The position numbers were made by a program, and so were the translations under genes. A stretch of 64,000 nt of DNA. Source: an uncultured Methanobrevibacter sp. (GTDB lineage Archaea; Methanobacteriota; Methanobacteria; Methanobacteriales; Methanobacteriaceae). The stretch is from contig NZ_CACZTX010000006.1 of the NCBI RefSeq assembly GCF_902784195.1, positions 1 to 64,000 on the forward strand. The letters run 5' to 3'. Below the pieces are notes generated by a model. The model saw only the letters and a list, made by a program, of their open reading frames with translations. It did not search any database and was not told the DNA's origin. Of the stretch, positions 46,262 through 63,755 are shown one piece after another (within the stretch, counting starts at the first letter, position 1; the number at the start of each line of letters is the position of its first letter).

Positions 46262-46317
46262 AAAAAATAAAAAAAGAAGAAAAATATAAGAAAAAGAGAA
46301 AGAGCTTATTGAGCTCT
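46262..46317 (-). terminator. Terminator of the fwd operon
   Basis: In the minus sense AGAGCT-CAATA-AGCTCT (46301-46317) forms a 6-bp stem overlapping the fwdC stop codon and is followed by TTTCTCTTTTTCTT and further T-rich sequence (complement of 46262-46300). Confidence 0.6.
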
Positions 46318-47172
46318 GTATTCTCTAATTGCGTTATATTCGTCGTCTTCTTCAATCCAAGTAGATAATCTGTCTCTGTTTTTCTCAGCATCAATAATTA
46401 AGGTACCTTTACCGTTTAAAGCAATGTCCCCTTTGTATTCGATGTATCTACCAGGATAAACAATACCATCTAATTCAGGATCGGTTACAATTCCTTGTTC
46501 TACGAAACCTTCGAGTAATCTTCCAACTTTTCCGTGAATTACGATGTTACCGTTTTTCATTTGTCCACCAGGCCAACGGTTTACGTTACCATCAATTTCA
46601 ATGGTACCTTTGGTCATGTGGATACCTGCGAGAATATCACAGTCACCTAAAACGTGGATTTTACCACCGACTAAACATTCACCACATTGTTTACCAGCAT
46701 TTCCGTGGATAATGATTTCTCCACCGGACATACCTCTCCATTCACCAATGTAGGATGCACCACAGAATTCTTTGGTATTACCCATAATTTCGAGTTTACC
46801 ACCTTTCATTTCACGACCAGCGTGAGCTGCTACGTTACCGAATACAGTAACTACTCCACCAGACATTTCTGCACCAACGTGAAGGTCTGCATCACCGTTA
46901 ACAACTACTTCACCAGCACTCATTTTACAACCGATGTATTTTACTCTGTTACAATCTCCGTTTAAAATCATTTTGACTTCAGCTGGAGATTCTGCTTCTC
47001 CTTCAACAGTGATGTCAAAGTAATCAGTGATTGGGAATCTGGAGTTTCCTACAGGTACTTTGTACTCTGCAAAGTCTTCTTCAGTCCAAGAGTAAATGTT
47101 ATCAGTGATTAACTCATCAAATTCTAAAGCAATTGAAGAAGTTTTCTTTTGATCAAAAGTTATAGTTTTCAT
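46306..47172 (-). CDS. fwdC: Formylmethanofuran dehydrogenase subunit C
   Basis: A 288-residue right-handed beta-helix protein with repeated Gly-rich units ([52 protein letters not shown] and so on), the GltB-C/FwdC fold. In the complex it joins FwdA and FwdB. It is the last gene of the operon, 15 nt after fwdA. AAGGAG precedes the ATG. Confidence 0.95.
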
Positions 47173-47187
47173 TAATAAACACTCTCC

Positions 47188-48906
47188 TTATTTAGCTTCT
47201 ACGTCCACTCTAGTTGGGTTTGGTACATAGTGGTCGTGTACTTGATAGTTTTCCCATTTGACAGAATAGTATTGGGTAAAGAATGGCATTATACTGTCGA
47301 TAATTTGTTTTTCTTCTTCTTCGTATCCTATGACGTTAGTCCAAATGGTGTGGCTTTGTTTAGTGGAAACAATGTCACCATCTTTAACAACGATTTGACC
47401 ATCTTTGATAGTGTAGTAAGCGTTACTGAATGCTTTTTCAACACCTTCAGGATCTTTGGATGGGTCAAAGTCATTAGGGTTAATGTCATATACAGCAATA
47501 TCCGCGTTGTAACCAGGGGTAAGTGCACCTCTGTCTTGGAATCCGTGGATTCTTGCAGGAGCTGCTCTGGAAATAGTAGCTATTTCGTAGAAATCGTATT
47601 CTCTTTCGAGACCAGCTAAGCCAGTTCTTTTGGAAGCCCATTTGTGTACTTCACCATTGTCAATCATAGACATCCTTTTCTCAGCACTCATTAACCAGGA
47701 GATGATCTTTGGATATCTGATGAAAGGACCTGCGTTAGGGTGGTCAGTGGTTAAACATACTTGCCATGGGTTCTTAATGTGCAAGAACAATTCAAGACCA
47801 ATAGCCCATTGTAAGGTACTTACTGGAGTTTTTGGAGAGTAAATACATGGAATGATACCAGCTGCGGTTTCACATTCAATGTCTTTGTTAGCCCATTTTA
47901 ATCCAGAAATTTTGAACAAGTCGTATTCCATAGGAGCGTCTGCAGTCATGGTTGTGGTTTCGTCGAAAGTTACTTGACCTACGTCACAAGTTACGTATGG
48001 GTTTTTGTTAATGAAGTCAGCAACTTCTTCTGCACCGGATGCTGCATCTTTCCAACTGTTACCAGTGTAAGAGTGGAATTGTGCGTGGGTACAGTGGATA
48101 GTTTGATCCCTTACGCCAGCAGATGCTTTAGTGGATTTTGCAATGTCTTTGATAGAGTCTAAAGTTGCAATAGTAGTTGGTACGTTTCCTGGGTGACCTA
48201 AATCATTAGGGTGGATGTGTATAGAGTGAGGAAGACCTAATTGTTCGTTAGCTTTTGCTAAAGCTCTTACAACTTCTCTGGAGGTTACGTCAAAGTAAGG
48301 TGCTTTGTCATCGTATCCGTGTACGTTCATACCCCAACCCCATGCTTCTGAACCACATGGGTTTACGATTTTTACACCGTATCCTTTAGATACTCTTAAC
48401 ATTGCTGCAATAAATGCTGCTAAGTCGTCAATTCTGTTTTCTCTTGCATATTCCATTACGAACCAGTTGTTACCGAATAATGGTAATGGGTTGATATCGA
48501 TGTTTGGAATAGTGTTAATTTCTTCGTGTGTGTGTTTTGCTTCTAAAGGAGGCATAGCTGCTTCACAAACAGTACCGTATCCCATTCTGGAGTATCTGTA
48601 TCCAGTGGTAGGACAACTTGGGATAGAGAAACCAGCTTCAGCTCTGGTTACTTTAGTTTTTTGAGCTACTCCTCTTCTTTCGTCTTCTGGTCTGTATAAT
48701 CTACCTACAACCAATTTTGGTCCTGCAACGTGAGCGTGAGGGTCTACACCAGCAGGCATTACAATTTTATCAGTGACGTCTAATACTTCAGCGTCAGCGG
48801 ATACATCTTCAACGATTTTACCATCTTTGAAGCAGATATCCATTTTTTCTCCGTTTACTTCATTAGCAGGGTCGTAAACAATACCATTTTTAAGTATATA
48901 TTCCAT
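47188..48906 (-). CDS. fwdA: Formylmethanofuran dehydrogenase subunit A
   Basis: A 572-residue metallo-amidohydrolase: [17 protein letters not shown] with metal ligands H57 and H59, [69 protein letters not shown]. It contains the dinuclear zinc site that condenses formate (from the FwdB side through the internal tunnel) with methanofuran. The ATG at 48906 is preferred because AAGGTGAT lies just upstream; the GTG at 48915 is part of it. It starts 10 nt after fwdB. Confidence 0.96.
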
Positions 48907-48916
48907 TAAAATCACC

Positions 48917-50314
48917 TTACTTATCTAAGAGACATGCGAGACCTTCATTAGGAACGTATTCATCTGCTACGTTAGGTTCTTCTCTGAGTTTCATTACTCT
49001 TTCTTTCAATTCACGTACAATCCATTCGTCATCACGACAGGTTTCAGGTTTGTCGATAGCTTTTTTCATCCAGATAGGAACACCATCCATACGGTAACTG
49101 GTACCTCCACATTCTACAGAAATGAAGGATCCAGGAAGTACTACGTCAGCGAGTTCGGTAGATGGTCCCCAGTGAATATCGATTTGGATAACTGGAATGT
49201 TTGCTAAGTGTTGGTTTGCTCCGTTAGGGAAGTGAGCACCAGGGTCAGCTGCAATTACCATGAAACAGTCAGGTTCTTTTCTTACGAGTAAGTCAATAGT
49301 GTTGGTTTCACCCATCATATATCTTCCGTATCCTCTACAGAAGTCTACACCGAATGCCCAACCGGTTTCGTAAGCCATGAAAATGTTGAAACCGTTTACG
49401 TTAAAGTGACCTCTCATTGGAGTAAGTCCCCATTTACTGTTGGTGTTTAAGTCTTGTACTAATTTAATTGCGATGTCAATGTTTCTTTGTTTACCTAAGG
49501 TGTGGGTTAAACCTAAACCGAAGAAGAGAACACCGAATTCTGCAGCTTCCATTTCAGCAGCTAATTCATAAATGTCTTCAGCTGGAATACCGGAAACAGA
49601 TTCAGATTGTAATTTTTTACCTTTTAATACAGCTCTTAAAGCGTTGTAGAAACCGTAGTCTCCGTTTTGTTCAAATCCAATCCATTTGTCAGACATTTTA
49701 GCAGTGTCTGAGAATTTTGGATCCATAGTGATAACGGTTCTGTCGAATCTACCTCTTTGTCTGAAGTATCCTCTAGGGAATGCTGCATATCTTGCTAAGT
49801 GTCTTGGGTGAGAGTTCATAGCGTTACTACCAGAGTATGCAATAACGTCAGCTCTGTTTTTTACTTCCCCTAAGGTTTGGATAGGGTAACCTGCGTTTTG
49901 CATAGCTTGTAAACTTGGACCGTGACAGATAGTTGCTTGGTTATCTAAAACAGCACCAATATATTCACCTAATTCTACACCTTCTTTCATACATTCAGTA
50001 GAAGTTTCAGACCAACCGTAGAATACTGGTCTAATAGAGTTTGCAATATATTCAGCTGCAGTGTCTAAAGCAGTATCCCAGTCCACTTCTTCAAGAACTC
50101 CTTCTTCGTTTCTTACCATTGGTACAAGTAATCTTTGGTCCATATCTTCCATAACTTTACTTGCACCTAATCTGCATGCGTGTCTTACAGCAACTACGTG
50201 ACCGTCTTTTACTAAGAAGTCTAAGTCGTCACAGTTACATCCACAAAATGCACAAGTACAATTTTCTACAATGTGATCGTAATCAGTTACAGGTGGTTCA
50301 TATGTCATGATCAA
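48917..50314 (-). CDS. fwdB: Formylmethanofuran dehydrogenase subunit B (W/Mo)
   Basis: A 465-residue molybdopterin/tungstopterin catalytic subunit: [20 protein letters not shown] for one [4Fe-4S] cluster, and QATICHGPS, where the Cys (about residue 130) replaces the selenocysteine seen in some fwdB genes. Further blocks [67 protein letters not shown] and [19 protein letters not shown] bind the pterin. It reduces CO2 to formate inside the complex. Its 5' end overlaps fwdD by 17 nt. TTG at 50314 has better spacing to GGAGG; ATG at 50308 is an alternative. Confidence 0.96.
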
Positions 50315-50870
50315 TCAACTCCTCCCATTTACGTCCGTTATAAACTGGTCTTTCACCTAATGATTCCATGTTTTCTACAACATCATCATCTTCTTCATCA
50401 ACATATTTTTTGTATACCCATCTCATTAAGTCTGCCATTAATAAAACTTTTCTGTCAGTTTTTTCAACGGTAGCGTGGATACCTTTGTAAGTAGGGTCTG
50501 AACAACAGTAGGTTTCGTGGCTTACAATAGTGTTAGCCCATGGACCTTTACATACAAAAATGGTACCTTCGTGAGGAGCATCTCTGGATTTTGCTGCGTT
50601 TAAAACAACTTCACCGTAGTCGGTTTTTACAAGTACAGTGTCCCAGTTTTTTACACCTAATTTTACCATGTCACGAGGATCCATGTAACAGGTACCTGAA
50701 GCGTTTTTATATTCTTCTTTTAAGGTAGAACCTCTTTTCTTACAAGCTCCTTGATATATGTCAGAACCAGTGTTTAACATACATTTGAGTACTTTAGTAG
50801 TACCTTCTTGAGCTACGTTTTCTAAATCTCCAACTACTGGTCTTTCTAAATAAGTATTTGCGTAATGCAT
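50298..50870 (-). CDS. fwdD: Formylmethanofuran dehydrogenase subunit D
   Basis: A 190-residue protein with the molybdopterin dinucleotide-binding fold: [90 protein letters not shown]. It completes the pterin-binding site formed by FwdB; subunits B and D correspond to the N- and C-terminal halves of formate dehydrogenase alpha. The C-terminal ~55 residues are longer than usual and acidic then basic. GGAG-type site before the ATG; the gene overlaps fwdB by 17 nt, implying coupled translation. Confidence 0.93.
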
Positions 50871-50880
50871 GTTATCACTC

Positions 50881-51111
50881 CTATTCTAACCATATAGCTT
50901 CAGTTGGACAGAACATTTGGCAAGTACCACATTTGTCACATTTGTCCACACTGAATAATTTAATAAATCCGTTTTCAACCATCATAATAGTTTCGGTTGT
51001 TTTGGAACCATGTCCACCAGCGTTTTCTGGGCTGATAGAAGCGTTTACTGGACATGCGATAACACATACTCCACAACCTAAACATTTATCTTGATCTACT
51101 TTAAGTTCCAT
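50881..51111 (-). CDS. fwdG: Ferredoxin subunit FwdG
   Basis: A 76-residue protein with two [4Fe-4S] motifs, [12 protein letters not shown] (residues ~10-21) and [12 protein letters not shown] near the C-terminus. It passes electrons between FwdF and FwdB. GGTGAT precedes the ATG; it starts 10 nt before fwdD and 18 nt after fwdF. Confidence 0.93.
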
Positions 51112-51129
51112 AAATAATCACCAATCAAA

Positions 51130-52230
51130 TTAATTTTTTAAAGCTTCGAATGCTGCAATCCAAGATTTAGAACTAGTTGGGGTGTAATCGATGTCAGTTC
51201 TAGTTACGGTTAATGCTCCGTTAGGACATGCTTTAGCACATGCACCACAGTGGATACAGTAATCTTCTTCTTTAACTAAGTGAGTTCCTCTGTCTCCAGG
51301 ACCAGATGATTTAGGGAAGGATAAAACATTACATGGACATACATCAATACATGCACCACAGGTACCACATTTTTCTTCATCGATTTCGAGAGTACCTTTA
51401 AATGCTTGTTTTACAGTAGCTGCGTCTGCAGGACAGACTCCTTCACACCATCCACATTTAATACAGGTTTCTTTATCAATAATTGCATTACCGGTAATAG
51501 CTGCTTTAGCAGGGTCGAGGTCATATTCACCGTAGGAACAGGATCTACATACTGCTTTAATAGCGTTAACAGGACATGCTTTTTTACATACGAGACAGTA
51601 TACACATTTTTCTTTGTCAATAACAATGCTTTCTTCACCGGTGGTTTTGTCTACTACAATAGCTTCTGCAGGACATAATTCAGCACAAGCGCCACAGTAA
51701 ATACAGTCGTCTTCACATACTTCGATTTCACCAGTTACTAAGTCAGCTCTGTTAGGTAAAGTTCTGTCAATAGTGATGGAAGCTCTAGGACAAGCTGCTT
51801 CACATTTTTTACAGAATAAACATTTGTCTTCATCGATTTCAGCTGAAGCGATGAGAGTTGGATAAGCTTCATTTTCTTTAATAGAGACGCCACCAATAGT
51901 AAGGTCTAATGCGCCTGCTGGACATACTCCACTACACATACCACAGAGAACACATTTGTTTTCATCAATGCATAATTTTGCTTTGACTTCATTGTCGTTT
52001 TTGAAAAGAGCATAATTTTGAGCAATCTTTTCATGACCACTGAAATAGGTTTCTGTGTATTTACGTTCAATAGGAGCTACTTCATCAAGAGCAATAGCTT
52101 CTACAGGACAAGTTGCTTCACAAAGGCCGCAACCAATACAAACGTGATCTTTAAAGGACAAAATTCTGTCTTCTTCTGCTGATCTTTTTATATTGAAGTT
52201 TTTGCCTTCAATTTCTTTAACGTTAACCAT
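51130..52230 (-). CDS. fwdF: Polyferredoxin FwdF
   Basis: A 366-residue polyferredoxin with eight CxxCxxCxxxC motifs in order: CIGCGLCEATCP, CVLCGMCSGVCP, CLFCKKCEAACP, CIYCGACAELCP, CVYCLVCKKACP, CIKCGWCEGVCP, CGTCGACIDVCP and CIHCGACAKACP, giving eight predicted [4Fe-4S] clusters that form an electron wire within the Fwd complex. GGAGGT precedes the ATG. The start overlaps the upstream HTH-ferredoxin gene by 8 nt. Confidence 0.95.
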   Translation of the reverse strand: MVNVKEIEGKNFNIKRSAEEDRILSFKDHVCIGCGLCEATCPVEAIALDEVAPIERKYTETYFSGHEKIAQNYALFKNDNEVKAKLCIDENKCVLCGMCSGVCPAGALDLTIGGVSIKENEAYPTLIASAEIDEDKCLFCKKCEAACPRASITIDRTLPNRADLVTGEIEVCEDDCIYCGACAELCPAEAIVVDKTTGEESIVIDKEKCVYCLVCKKACPVNAIKAVCRSCSYGEYDLDPAKAAITGNAIIDKETCIKCGWCEGVCPADAATVKQAFKGTLEIDEEKCGTCGACIDVCPCNVLSFPKSSGPGDRGTHLVKEEDYCIHCGACAKACPNGALTVTRTDIDYTPTSSKSWIAAFEALKN

Positions 52231-52681
52231 TTTTTACCTCCAAAATTTCAATTGATTTTGTTGGGCAATTCTCAACACACATAAGACAGCCACAACAATA
52301 ACGGGGGTTTATCTTTGCTTTCAATGAATCTAAGTTAATAGCCTTCATCTCACACAAATCTACACACAATCCACAACCAATACATCCATCGTTAATCTGT
52401 GGGTCATAATGATTCATATTAAAAATAGTCACGATTTGACGAATTTCTTTATAATCTCCAAATAAAACTTTTGTTATTAATATAAAATCCTTAGGACTTA
52501 ACTCTAAAATAGTTTTAGCAAGTTCGATAGAATCCATGGATATGTTTCTACCATTCAAGTAGTGAGAAATAGTTGATCTGTCTACACCGATTTGAGATGA
52601 AATCTCCTTTTGGGACAAGCCTCTTTTTCTCAACTCAACACTTTCTAAATATTTTAGTCCAGATACTATATGTTTTGGCAT
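52223..52681 (-). CDS. fwdH: HTH-ferredoxin protein, first gene of the fwd operon
   Basis: A 152-residue fusion. Residues ~14-48 form a helix-turn-helix of the XRE/Cro type (LRKRGLSQKEISSQIGVDRSTISHYLNGRNIS); residues ~50-95 are a linker; residues 100-139 hold two [4Fe-4S] motifs CIGCGLCVDLCE (C100, C103, C106, C110) and CCGCLMCVENCP (C129, C132, C135, C139). The position matches fwdH of Methanothermobacter, first in fwdHFGDACB. The DNA-binding domain suggests an iron-sulfur-sensing transcription regulator rather than only an electron carrier, though it could be both. It overlaps fwdF by 8 nt. GGTGAATTT precedes the ATG. Confidence 0.85.
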   Translation of the reverse strand: MPKHIVSGLKYLESVELRKRGLSQKEISSQIGVDRSTISHYLNGRNISMDSIELAKTILELSPKDFILITKVLFGDYKEIRQIVTIFNMNHYDPQINDGCIGCGLCVDLCEMKAINLDSLKAKINPRYCCGCLMCVENCPTKSIEILEVKNG

Positions 52682-52756
52682 AAATTCACCATGTGTACAT
52701 TATAATATATATTATATATACTTATAAAAGGCACATACTTAGACTCAAGTATAAAG

Positions 52757-52768
52757 ATTTATATATGA
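52757..52768 (-). promoter_or_regulatory. TATA box for the fwd operon
   Basis: CATATATAAATC in the minus sense, about 80 nt upstream of the start at 52681; predicted transcription start about 52735. A second TATA-like run (TTTATAAGTATATATA, 52711-52726) lies closer to the gene. Confidence 0.4.
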
Positions 52769-52769
52769 C

Positions 52770-52786
52770 TGTGTATTATTTACACA
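52770..52786. promoter_or_regulatory. Operator-like palindrome 1 (TGTGTA-N5-TACACA)
   Basis: TGTGTA-TTATT-TACACA, a perfect 6-bp inverted repeat with a 5-nt centre. It abuts the predicted TATA box of the fwd operon on its upstream (BRE) side. Confidence 0.6.
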
Positions 52787-53050
52787 TTTGTAAAAATATT
52801 AATTTTTAATTATATTAATTATTTTCAAAAAATAAGAATAAATAATAAATTAATATAAAATATTTAACTAAATAATTATTTACTCATTAAATAAATTATT
52901 TTTTAACCTAATTATAAAAATTAAACTGATTTTATTAAAATAAAAATAGTTAAAATCTAATCAAAAATAGCTAAATTATATCTCCAATATGTAAACAAAT
53001 TTACATCGAATTTATGAAAATTTTTTAAATTTTTAGGCCAAACAAAAAAA

Positions 53051-53067
53051 TGTGTACTAAATACACA
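53051..53067. promoter_or_regulatory. Operator-like palindrome 2 (TGTGTA-N5-TACACA)
   Basis: TGTGTA-CTAAA-TACACA with one more complementary base on each side (A53050, T53068), so 7-bp arms. Confidence 0.6.
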
Positions 53068-53074
53068 TGATGCA

Positions 53075-53091
53075 GGTGTAGTAAGTACACA
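53075..53091. promoter_or_regulatory. Operator-like palindrome 3 (GGTGTA-N5-TACACA)
   Basis: GGTGTA-GTAAG-TACACA, five of six arm bases complementary. Its centre is 24 bp from palindrome 2, so the two sites are on nearly the same DNA face (about 2.3 turns). Confidence 0.55.
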
Positions 53092-53372: not shown

Positions 53373-54305
53373 CTATTCTTCCTTATAGAAAGGTTCCCTA
53401 TTATGGATTCCCTTAAGGAAAATGTCTACAAGTTCCTCATCAGAGACTCCTTCTCTAATGAACTCCACCAAGTCAACAAGATTATCGTTTCTAAGAAGAC
53501 AAGGTTTGATCTTTCCTTCAGGAGTGATTCTAAGTCTAGTGCAATTCTTGCAGAAATTGGTATTGTCTACAGGATGGACAACTTCAATCTCACCGCCTTC
53601 AATGAAATATTTCTTACGATCCTGCATAAATTCCCTTACCTTGATTTCATCTGCAATTTCAGCAAGGTATTTTTCAAATTCTGCAAGTGGGTAATGGTAC
53701 TTGGAGTTGAAGTCATTATCATCACAGCTTTGAGATTCTATAATCTCAATAAGTTGAAGTATGACACCATTCTCTTTAGTGAATTCGAACATGTCCATGA
53801 TCTCATCATTGTTGATATTATTCATAACTACCATATTTATCTTAACTGGATACATACCAACTTCACAAGATTTAACAATTCCATCCTTTACTCTTTGTAA
53901 AACGTTTTTCCCTACAATCATTTGATAGGTTTCTTCATCAAGTGTGTCTAAACTGACATTAACTCTGTCTAATCCTGCATCGACTAAATCTTGTGCAAAT
54001 TTCTCCAAAAATATACCATTGGTTGTGATTGAAATATCCTTGAAATCAAGTGAATTAATTTTTTCAACAATTTCAACTATGTCTGGCCTGACTAAAGGTT
54101 CGCCACCAGACAAACGTATTTTCTCAACACCTAATTTCTTTGCAATTCTACAGATTTCATAAATTTCATCAGGAGTCATTTCAGAAGATGAATCCAACAT
54201 ACCATCATGGTGGCAATATATGCAGTTTACATTGCAACGATTGGTAATGGAAATCCTAAGTGAAATAATTGGCCTTTCATAATCGTCTCTTACTTTATCC
54301 TTCAT
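53373..54305 (-). CDS. moaA: GTP 3',8-cyclase MoaA
   Basis: A 310-residue radical SAM enzyme: [18 protein letters not shown] (CxxxCxxC for the SAM cluster), [28 protein letters not shown], and a second [4Fe-4S] site near the C-terminus in [22 protein letters not shown]. It starts molybdopterin synthesis, feeding the W/Mo cofactor needed by Fwd and Fdh around it. Length fits archaeal MoaA. GGGG lies before the ATG. It is the last minus-strand gene before the fwd regulatory region. Confidence 0.95.
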
Positions 54306-54666: not shown

Positions 54667-55374
54667 TTATTCTTTTTTATTTTTAATTGTTATGTCAATA
54701 TCATCAAAGTTCTCTACACCATATTCCTTAATCTTAAGTGGAGTCAAAACTCCCAATATGGTTTGCTTGAGGTAATCGCTAACAAATCTGTTCAATCCAA
54801 TATTCACCCCATCAATAGCTAAATTGACTTCCGCTTGAGTTTCCGGATTGTAATCCAATTTTCCTTGTGCGAAAGCTTGACCTATGAGACTTGCATCATT
54901 ATATCCGCATTCATTAACAAATAATGTCTCCAAAATATCGTAAGATCTTTCTTCCACAAGGTCAACCAATTCCAATAGCTCTTCATCTGTGATTTCAAAA
55001 GAGTTCACAACTTTGATTGTATATTCATCCTTGACCTCTTCACAGGTAGCTATTTTAGCATAAGGATAAGCTTTAAATCCTTCTATAACCACAAAATCAG
55101 GATTTTCCATAAGTTTTATTAAGAATAAAATACGTTCTAAATCAAGTCTTTCATTAATATTGAAATAGGTTCTTCCACCGATTCCTACAACAAAATCAGA
55201 ACCGGCTTCCATTTGCTTATAGGTGTCGGTTCCCTCATGATCCATTTCCATTTGGTGATGAGAATGCTTAATGCTTGCTACCTTAAAGTCCCTATTGCCT
55301 AATTCCGTGATAATCTTGCTTGTAAGGGATGTCTTGCCAGTATTCTTTAAACCTACAATTGAAATAATTCTCAT
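54667..55374 (-). CDS. mobB: Molybdopterin-guanine dinucleotide biosynthesis protein MobB with extra C-terminal domain
   Basis: A 235-residue protein: P-loop GLKNTGKTSLTSKI, IKHSHHQMEMDHEGTDTYKQMEAGSDFVVGIGGR, LIKLMENPDFVVIEGFKAYPYAKIATCEEVKD, typical of MobB GTPases. Residues ~180-235 form an extra C-terminal domain not found in bacterial MobB, homologous to the separate 61-residue protein next door. MobB helps attach GMP to molybdopterin. GGTG precedes the ATG. Confidence 0.92.
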   Translation of the reverse strand: MRIISIVGLKNTGKTSLTSKIITELGNRDFKVASIKHSHHQMEMDHEGTDTYKQMEAGSDFVVGIGGRTYFNINERLDLERILFLIKLMENPDFVVIEGFKAYPYAKIATCEEVKDEYTIKVVNSFEITDEELLELVDLVEERSYDILETLFVNECGYNDASLIGQAFAQGKLDYNPETQAEVNLAIDGVNIGLNRFVSDYLKQTILGVLTPLKIKEYGVENFDDIDITIKNKKE

Positions 55375-62819: not shown

Positions 62820-63755
62820 ATGCCAAGCAGTGAAAATCAAAATCAGGAAGATGTATTCACAGATGATAAGAACAACATTAAGCCTGAGATTGGAATTGAA
62901 ATAGATGGAATATCATTTAATTACAAATTCTTTGAAACCCTGGAATCATTATCAAAAACATATTCCCAAAGAAAAACCGCAAAGGAATTGAAAGTGTCTC
63001 ACTCTGTGCTTAACAGAAGAATCAAAAATGCTGAGGACAAACTTGGCGAGAAATTGGTCATTACAGTAGGTTCCGGTTCTGAATTAAGCGAAAGGGGATA
63101 TGAACTCCTGGACATTTACTACAAATACAAAAATCGATTGGAGGATAGAAAAGAGATCATAATCGCCGGAGGACACATCATTACAGGCCTGCTTCAGGCA
63201 ATAAGTTATGACTTGCCATTCAATACATTGATTTACAGCAGTGATGACGAAAGCGCATATGAGCTTGCAAAACAGGATTTGGTTGACATTTTAGCATTGG
63301 ACGACCCATTACTTGCTTTTGAAAATGACTTGAACTTTACAGCTATTGCATATGACCATCTAGTGTTAATCTCTCCAAATCATGGAAAGACAATTGAAAA
63401 GATAGAAGATTTGGAAGGATTGAAATTCATTGGAGTCAAAGGAAGTGCTCAAAGGTTGGCATGGAGCACATTAAGACAGGAAAACATTAATTTTACAATA
63501 GATAGAGAAGTGAAATCACAATTTGATGCATTTAAGATTGTTAAAAACTCTGACGAATACTATACTTTCTTAAACGCAAGCTATTTCAATGGAAATGAAA
63601 TCCTAAAAAATGAAACCCGCCACGTAATAAGTTTGGTTCAAATCAATGATACAAAAGATGACATTTATAATTTAATTGAATATTTACTTTTTGATGGGCA
63701 AATAAAAATAGGGGAACAAGGATTTATACCAATGAAACCTTGGAAAACTAGGTAA
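62820..63755 (+). CDS. ModE/LysR-like regulator with substrate-binding-like domain
   Basis: A 311-residue protein. Residues 1-~25 are acidic and polar; ~33-85 form a winged helix of the ModE/LysR type (LSKTYSQRKTAKELKVSHSVLNRRIKNAEDKLGEKLVIT, TELSERGYELL style). Residues ~110-311 resemble a type 2 periplasmic-binding (substrate-binding) fold used as an effector domain, with EIIIAGGHIITGLLQAI and VKSQFDAFKIV. Such archaeal proteins are often linked to molybdate or tungstate control; no ligand can be assigned from sequence. GAGGGAG precedes the ATG. Confidence 0.75.
   Translation: MPSSENQNQEDVFTDDKNNIKPEIGIEIDGISFNYKFFETLESLSKTYSQRKTAKELKVSHSVLNRRIKNAEDKLGEKLVITVGSGSELSERGYELLDIYYKYKNRLEDRKEIIIAGGHIITGLLQAISYDLPFNTLIYSSDDESAYELAKQDLVDILALDDPLLAFENDLNFTAIAYDHLVLISPNHGKTIEKIEDLEGLKFIGVKGSAQRLAWSTLRQENINFTIDREVKSQFDAFKIVKNSDEYYTFLNASYFNGNEILKNETRHVISLVQINDTKDDIYNLIEYLLFDGQIKIGEQGFIPMKPWKTR

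Follow-up and report, generated by a model that had tools for sequence, protein, structure and literature searches.

Among the regulators described in methanogens, two offer the closest parallels to the locus analysed here. Tfx, whose gene stands at the head of an operon for formylmethanofuran dehydrogenase, as fwdH does, binds DNA near the promoter (PMC3087415). MsvR of Methanothermobacter and Methanosarcina acts on its own and on a divergent promoter, as the candidate FwdH circuit would; its boxes are inverted repeats that overlap or abut the BRE/TATA region, and its DNA binding is redox-dependent (PMC3729527). A further likeness is with the XRE/Cro-CI regulators, e.g., C.Esp1396I and lambda repressor, whose HTH fold resembles that of the N-terminal half of FwdH. 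The lambda operators are palindromic and ~17 bp long. Little is known about the control of CO2 entry into methanogenesis in hydrogenotrophic methanogens. FwdH itself is listed as a subunit of the tungsten formylmethanofuran dehydrogenase (fwdHFGDACB, MTH1553-1559), and a review states that no H2 sensor has been found in Methanothermobacter (PMC3087415). The window (the whole stretch of 64,000 nucleotides that was analysed) contains an fwd operon and the following features.

52770-52786: candidate proximal operator, exact palindrome TGTGTATTATTTACACA, at -105 relative to the start codon of fwdH and with the TATA box 4 bp downstream
53051-53067: candidate distal operator 1, exact palindrome TGTGTACTAAATACACA, at -386
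53075-53091: candidate distal operator 2, GGTGTAGTAAGTACACA, with one arm mismatch, at -410
52692-52708, minus strand: the -27 operator position, where the right arm TACACA (52692-52697) remains and the left arm is lost
52759-52766, minus strand: predicted fwd TATA box, ATATATAA, whose offset from the proximal palindrome is conserved in relatives
52686-52690, minus strand: ribosome-binding site (RBS) GGTGA of fwdH, read from the sequence
52223-52681, minus strand: fwdH, 152 aa, with an N-terminal XRE-type HTH and a C-terminal two-cluster ferredoxin domain; the candidate binder
51130-52230, minus strand: fwdF, a polyferredoxin gene, the second of the operon (NF042909, 9.4e-137)
50881-51111, minus strand: fwdG-like two-cluster ferredoxin, 76 aa, assigned by position and cysteine motif
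46306-50870, minus strand: fwdD, fwdB, fwdA and fwdC; fwdB by TIGR03129, the others by sequence and order
53373-54305, minus strand: moaA, the same-strand upstream neighbour (NF001199, 3.4e-136)
54667-55374, minus strand: mobB, which has an operator upstream in g9 and none in the window's genus
62820-63755: LysR-type HTH regulator (LysR/ModE-like), whose gene frequently shares a contig with fwd

The first-pass annotation of this DNA had described three palindromes with the same arms, all of which lie between moaA and fwdH, both genes being on the minus strand. This description was slightly generous, in that two of them are exact but the third carries an arm mismatch. The adjacency of one palindrome to the predicted fwd TATA box was confirmed, since the box begins 4 bp past the proximal palindrome when read on the minus strand, as was the presence of two others further up, whose starts are 24 bp apart and the nearer of which lies 281 bp from the proximal one (53051 back to 52770). 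A lone TACACA half-site had been placed over the RBS; the half-site exists, but it abuts the GGTGA motif, ending 1 bp upstream of it, rather than overlapping it. When the core TGTGT-N7-ACACA was scanned with up to one mismatch, no further site appeared within the 64-kb window, in agreement with the claim that no full palindrome was seen in its other intergenic regions. Versions with two mismatches were not rare in the window.

FwdH loci were then gathered from named genomes and, at the levels of family, order and phylum, from whole genomes. In 80 regions upstream of fwdH (up to 450 bp each), 182 core sites with at most one mismatch were found, against a mean of 1.02 and a maximum of 3 in 100 shuffled sets. 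The operator with at most one mismatch was present in 79 of the 80 regions, at fixed positions, so that the palindromes are not missing upstream of fwd in close relatives, which had been named as one of two refuting outcomes, although the genomes are related and the sites in this count are therefore not independent events. The proximal site was located at -104 to -109 across the relatives (-104 to -106 in g1, the window's genus, where all relatives with enough upstream sequence carry it), and a TATA-like motif started no more than 6 bp after it in 73 of 78 regions. The 5-bp spacer between the arms was also constrained, mostly to NTNAN across the relatives, giving TGTGTANTNANTACACA, and the fully symmetric form TGTGTAGTNACTACACA was frequent among them. 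In most other genera the proximal site was accompanied by a complete palindrome at -27 to -31, and wherever the two occurred together, in 58 of 58 such regions, they were separated by 77-80 bp. The half-site near the RBS in the window corresponds to this third operator. The same proximal/-27 pair was observed in families f2 and f3, where TGTGTG-type arms are common, and the 1.2-Mb genome of a fourth family (G151) has degenerate versions at both positions. Two assemblies (G046, contigs C90 and C119; G049, contigs C138 and C160) contain two fwdH copies each, every copy with an upstream operator; these could be true duplications or mixed assemblies.

The motif scan proposed with the first-pass annotation was run on whole genomes, and the sites were not frequent at random positions, so that the second refuting outcome did not occur either. 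In the window's genome (2,046,587 bp), TGTGTA-N5-TACACA occurred twice exactly and five times with at most one mismatch, and three of these five were in the fwd upstream region; a reversed control pattern gave 2 matches. The two remaining near-matches, one with the nearest gene start ~300 bp downstream (L004) and one inside an ORF (L005), look like background. Among the strict-pattern matches listed in 51 genomes, 71 of 75 lay within 600 bp upstream of the fwdH start, and the other four comprised two upstream of mobB (G042, G056) and two in apparently unrelated genes. A large regulon was rejected, the remaining core matches in the inspected genomes being mostly intragenic or not shared. Two exact strict matches inside long ORFs of g9 genomes (L118:1672-1688 and L119:1751-1767) are probably background. 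In families f2 and f1 (g15), a SAM-methyltransferase-like gene is preceded by a longer palindrome, TGTGTGT-N5-ACACACA (L172:1783-1801, L174:1765-1783, L162:1501-1519), which may be an extra target or the site of another regulator.

In the relatives examined the sites are hence position-conserved upstream of fwdH and nearly exclusive to that place, which upholds the proposal that they are operators, and they combine a location at FwdH's own promoter with conservation in relatives and rarity elsewhere, as is expected of an autoregulated operon. The occurrence of two-mismatch versions in the window might suggest chance palindromes in AT-rich DNA, but the shuffles, the reversed-pattern control, the genome-wide counts and the conservation all exclude this explanation, to which we attach practically no weight. 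From these patterns we consider it probable that the palindromes TGTGTANTNANTACACA serve as operators of a dimeric transcription factor over fwdHFGDBAC, most likely FwdH, in an autoregulatory circuit.

Distal site(s) were found around -350 to -410 among the relatives. All but one of the g1 relatives with enough upstream sequence had at least two of them, near -385 (-385 to -388) and -410; the exceptions to the g1 arrangement were L037, with three distal sites in 23-bp steps, and L036, with one at -295, where the contig ends. Within the window's genus the distance of the distal pair to the proximal site is held at 280-282 bp. In 11 g1 genomes the spacer between the distal pair and the proximal site measured 263-265 bp, with an AT-rich sequence whose pairwise identity fell to ~55-60%, and the listed alignments of this spacer, those of L037 excepted, had no more than 2 gap columns. 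The interval from moaA to the distal pair varied in g1 from ~130 to 282 bp. The spacing thus seems to be constrained within g1, because the length of the spacer is held while its sequence and the moaA interval vary, and this rigidity favours a putative DNA loop. Looping is weakened by the distances in different genera (246, 256, 258 and 281 bp), because they share no common helical phase, and the conservation of one phase between genera was therefore unsupported. The distal pair could instead be a leftover, or a separate operator of a divergent or non-coding transcript, that takes no part in fwd looping. This explanation, which we hold to be quite possible if somewhat short of an even chance, agrees with the homologous g9 site at the mobB promoter and with the other conserved blocks beside the distal pair; against it, the upstream neighbour of fwdH differs among g1 genomes, yet the pair remains with fwdH and its distance to the proximal site is kept within 2 bp, and neither an ORF nor an Rfam family was found at the distal pair.

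Other conserved elements were observed in this region. In g9 (e.g., L106, L113, L116) a second palindrome, TTTAGGTNAACCTAAA, lies directly on the fwdH side of the distal operator, and further along there is an inverted repeat GTAATAC...GTATTAC; g1 keeps a block related to the former, GTTTGGCCTAAAAATTT (~53025-53050 in the window). These blocks and the repeat are possibly sites of another factor. A further block, TTCGATGTAAATTTGTTTACATATTGGAGATATAATTT (minus strand, ~52970-53010 in the window), lies between the promoter and the distal pair and is strongly conserved in g1; no ORF or Rfam match was detected in it. A known RNA element in the fwd leader was rejected, as there was no Rfam match, and the proximal site lies upstream of the TATA box and would therefore be absent from the RNA of the predicted promoter.

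The upstream region had been said to feed only the fwd operon, which is true in the window but false in its relatives. In g9 a mobB-moaA pair runs divergently from fwdH. The single distal site of g9, at ~-350 relative to fwdH, precedes the mobB start by 65-90 bp and would be the promoter-proximal operator of the divergent mobB-moaA genes. L038 (g15) has its distal site in the interval that separates fwdH from a divergent moeA. In G042 and G056, fwdH and mobB are separated by a small ferredoxin gene and an FwdF-like gene, and operators are present on both sides. In the window's genus these genes have moved: where mobB and moaA are neighbours, both precede fwdH on its own strand, and no operator accompanies mobB. 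The regulon would extend to molybdopterin-cofactor genes, because the g9 distal site would serve mobB-moaA. The window's genome also has an FwdF paralogue outside the fwd operon, without an operator (~194050-195018 of G000:C2; L182:2051-3019), and it is a homologue of this paralogue that is placed between fwdH and mobB in G042 and G056.

FwdH matched HTH_3 (PF01381, 4.9e-09, above the curated cut-off) and Fer4 families. Its HTH_3-type DNA-binding domain, with a recognition helix at about residues 35-42, is fused to a C-terminal part with two CxxCxxCxxxC [4Fe-4S] motifs. The AF2 model was confident in the HTH half only, its HTH helices included; the ferredoxin half was poorly modelled, with a mean pLDDT of 61.6. 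In 79 FwdH sequences the eight cluster cysteines were invariant and a ninth, C130, was conserved at 99%; R35, S36, T37, S39, H40, Y41, G44 and N46 of the recognition region were also invariant, which matches the almost invariant operator. Covariation of FwdH with the operator offered no usable variation, since neither the recognition helix nor the operator varies enough, and an N43H change in the recognition region is found whether or not the outer operator bases are altered. The search of the phylum found full-length FwdH only in class Methanobacteria. Among solved structures the PDB matches covered the ferredoxin domain only, including Fwd subunits F and G; no chain matched FwdH over both domains, an absence from the deposits that does not in itself prove FwdH to be no structural subunit of the Fwd enzyme.

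The sites co-occur with FwdH in families f1, f2 and f3, and are degenerate in a fourth. In g12 (20 genomes), which is probably Methanosphaera, a guess from its gene content, neither FwdH nor a strict site was found; the g12 genomes tested have fwdB without FwdF and keep fwdDBAC, and three g12 fwdD-B-A-C regions read at length had no site with at most one mismatch. The phyletic argument has two limits: co-occurrence of gene and site is expected whoever binds, because FwdH heads the operon, and g12 has also lost FwdF and mobB. Also counting against control by FwdH are its published listing among the enzyme subunits and the description of the tungsten enzyme as constitutive (PMC3087415). Another regulator could bind the palindromes, either the LysR/ModE-like protein encoded ~10 kb away, whose gene is present in 36 of 36 genomes tested, or an unlinked one, and control fwd and the cofactor genes on sensing molybdate/tungstate or some other signal, FwdH being confined to electron transfer. 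The molybdopterin-cofactor genes among the targets fit such a regulator. However, the LysR/ModE-like gene is retained in g12, where the strict operator is absent, which disfavours this neighbour as the binder, and FwdH has an HTH of its own and is missing exactly in g12; we regard binding by another regulator as unlikely. By phyletic pattern and domain content, the HTH-ferredoxin protein FwdH, already named in the first-pass annotation, is the best-supported candidate binder. These results suggest a regulatory role for FwdH, which has been catalogued among the subunits of the enzyme.

A FwdH dimer would place one HTH on each half-site, the half-site centres being 11 bp apart. Bound to the proximal site, the dimer would cover the BRE side, directly ahead of the TATA box; bound to the -27 site, it would sit downstream of the start, which is predicted near 52735 on the minus strand. 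Occupancy of both would hinder TFB/TBP loading or promoter escape. In g1 the distal dimer would probably interact with the proximal dimer to form a loop, tying the distal site to fwd. Repression with autoregulation is our first choice for the sign of the control, because of these placements of the proximal and -27 sites; the main alternative is activation from the upstream position, in which FwdH would recruit TFB/TBP from directly upstream of the BRE. Archaeal activators often bind next to the BRE/TATA region. The proximal site ends beside this region and is the most strictly kept of all, and the enzyme has been described as constitutive (PMC3087415), all of which suits an activator; the -27 operator, downstream of the predicted start and complete in most genera, suits repression instead. 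We judge activation to be possible, though appreciably less than an even prospect. The [4Fe-4S] domain would be the putative sensor of cluster redox state or occupancy, and fwd output would follow the ferredoxin/redox state. Given the description of the tungsten enzyme as constitutive (PMC3087415), redox or cluster state is a more probable signal than Mo/W supply.

More broadly, and with more doubt than confidence, we propose that throughout class Methanobacteria FwdH may act as a redox sensor with iron-sulfur clusters that autoregulates the first step in CO2-reducing methanogenesis. It would match the level of formylmethanofuran dehydrogenase, and in many genera also that of molybdopterin-cofactor synthesis, to how far the ferredoxin pool is reduced (and thereby to H2 supply), by means of a fixed-length DNA loop in Methanobrevibacter. 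The sequence defines a specific operator, a candidate protein and a small regulon (fwd and molybdopterin-cofactor genes) that can now be tested directly, and the operator spans an order to which dominant rumen and gut methanogens belong. In the open literature that was searched, no description of an fwd operator was found, although papers under subscription, the 1996 operon paper among them, may contain one, and no report was found in it of FwdH DNA binding that changes with cluster state.

The differences from the known systems are as follows. MsvR is a V4R protein that recognizes TTCGN7-9CGAA, whereas FwdH combines an XRE-type HTH with a two-cluster ferredoxin and its candidate operator is TGTGTANTNANTACACA; FwdH had no match to the V4R domain and its operator is not of the MsvR type, so that membership of the MsvR family was rejected. 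Tfx is encoded beside the molybdenum fmdECB genes and regulates that isoenzyme, and its own transcription is repressed by tungstate; unlike FwdH, it is not described as a ferredoxin fusion, and it is by description only that the two are set apart (PMC3087415). In the fold search no match to FwdH had an E-value below 0.001, and the best ones, weak and not significant (best E 0.12), were chains of C.Esp1396I; compared with the XRE/Cro-CI regulators, the two [4Fe-4S] motifs are FwdH's own.
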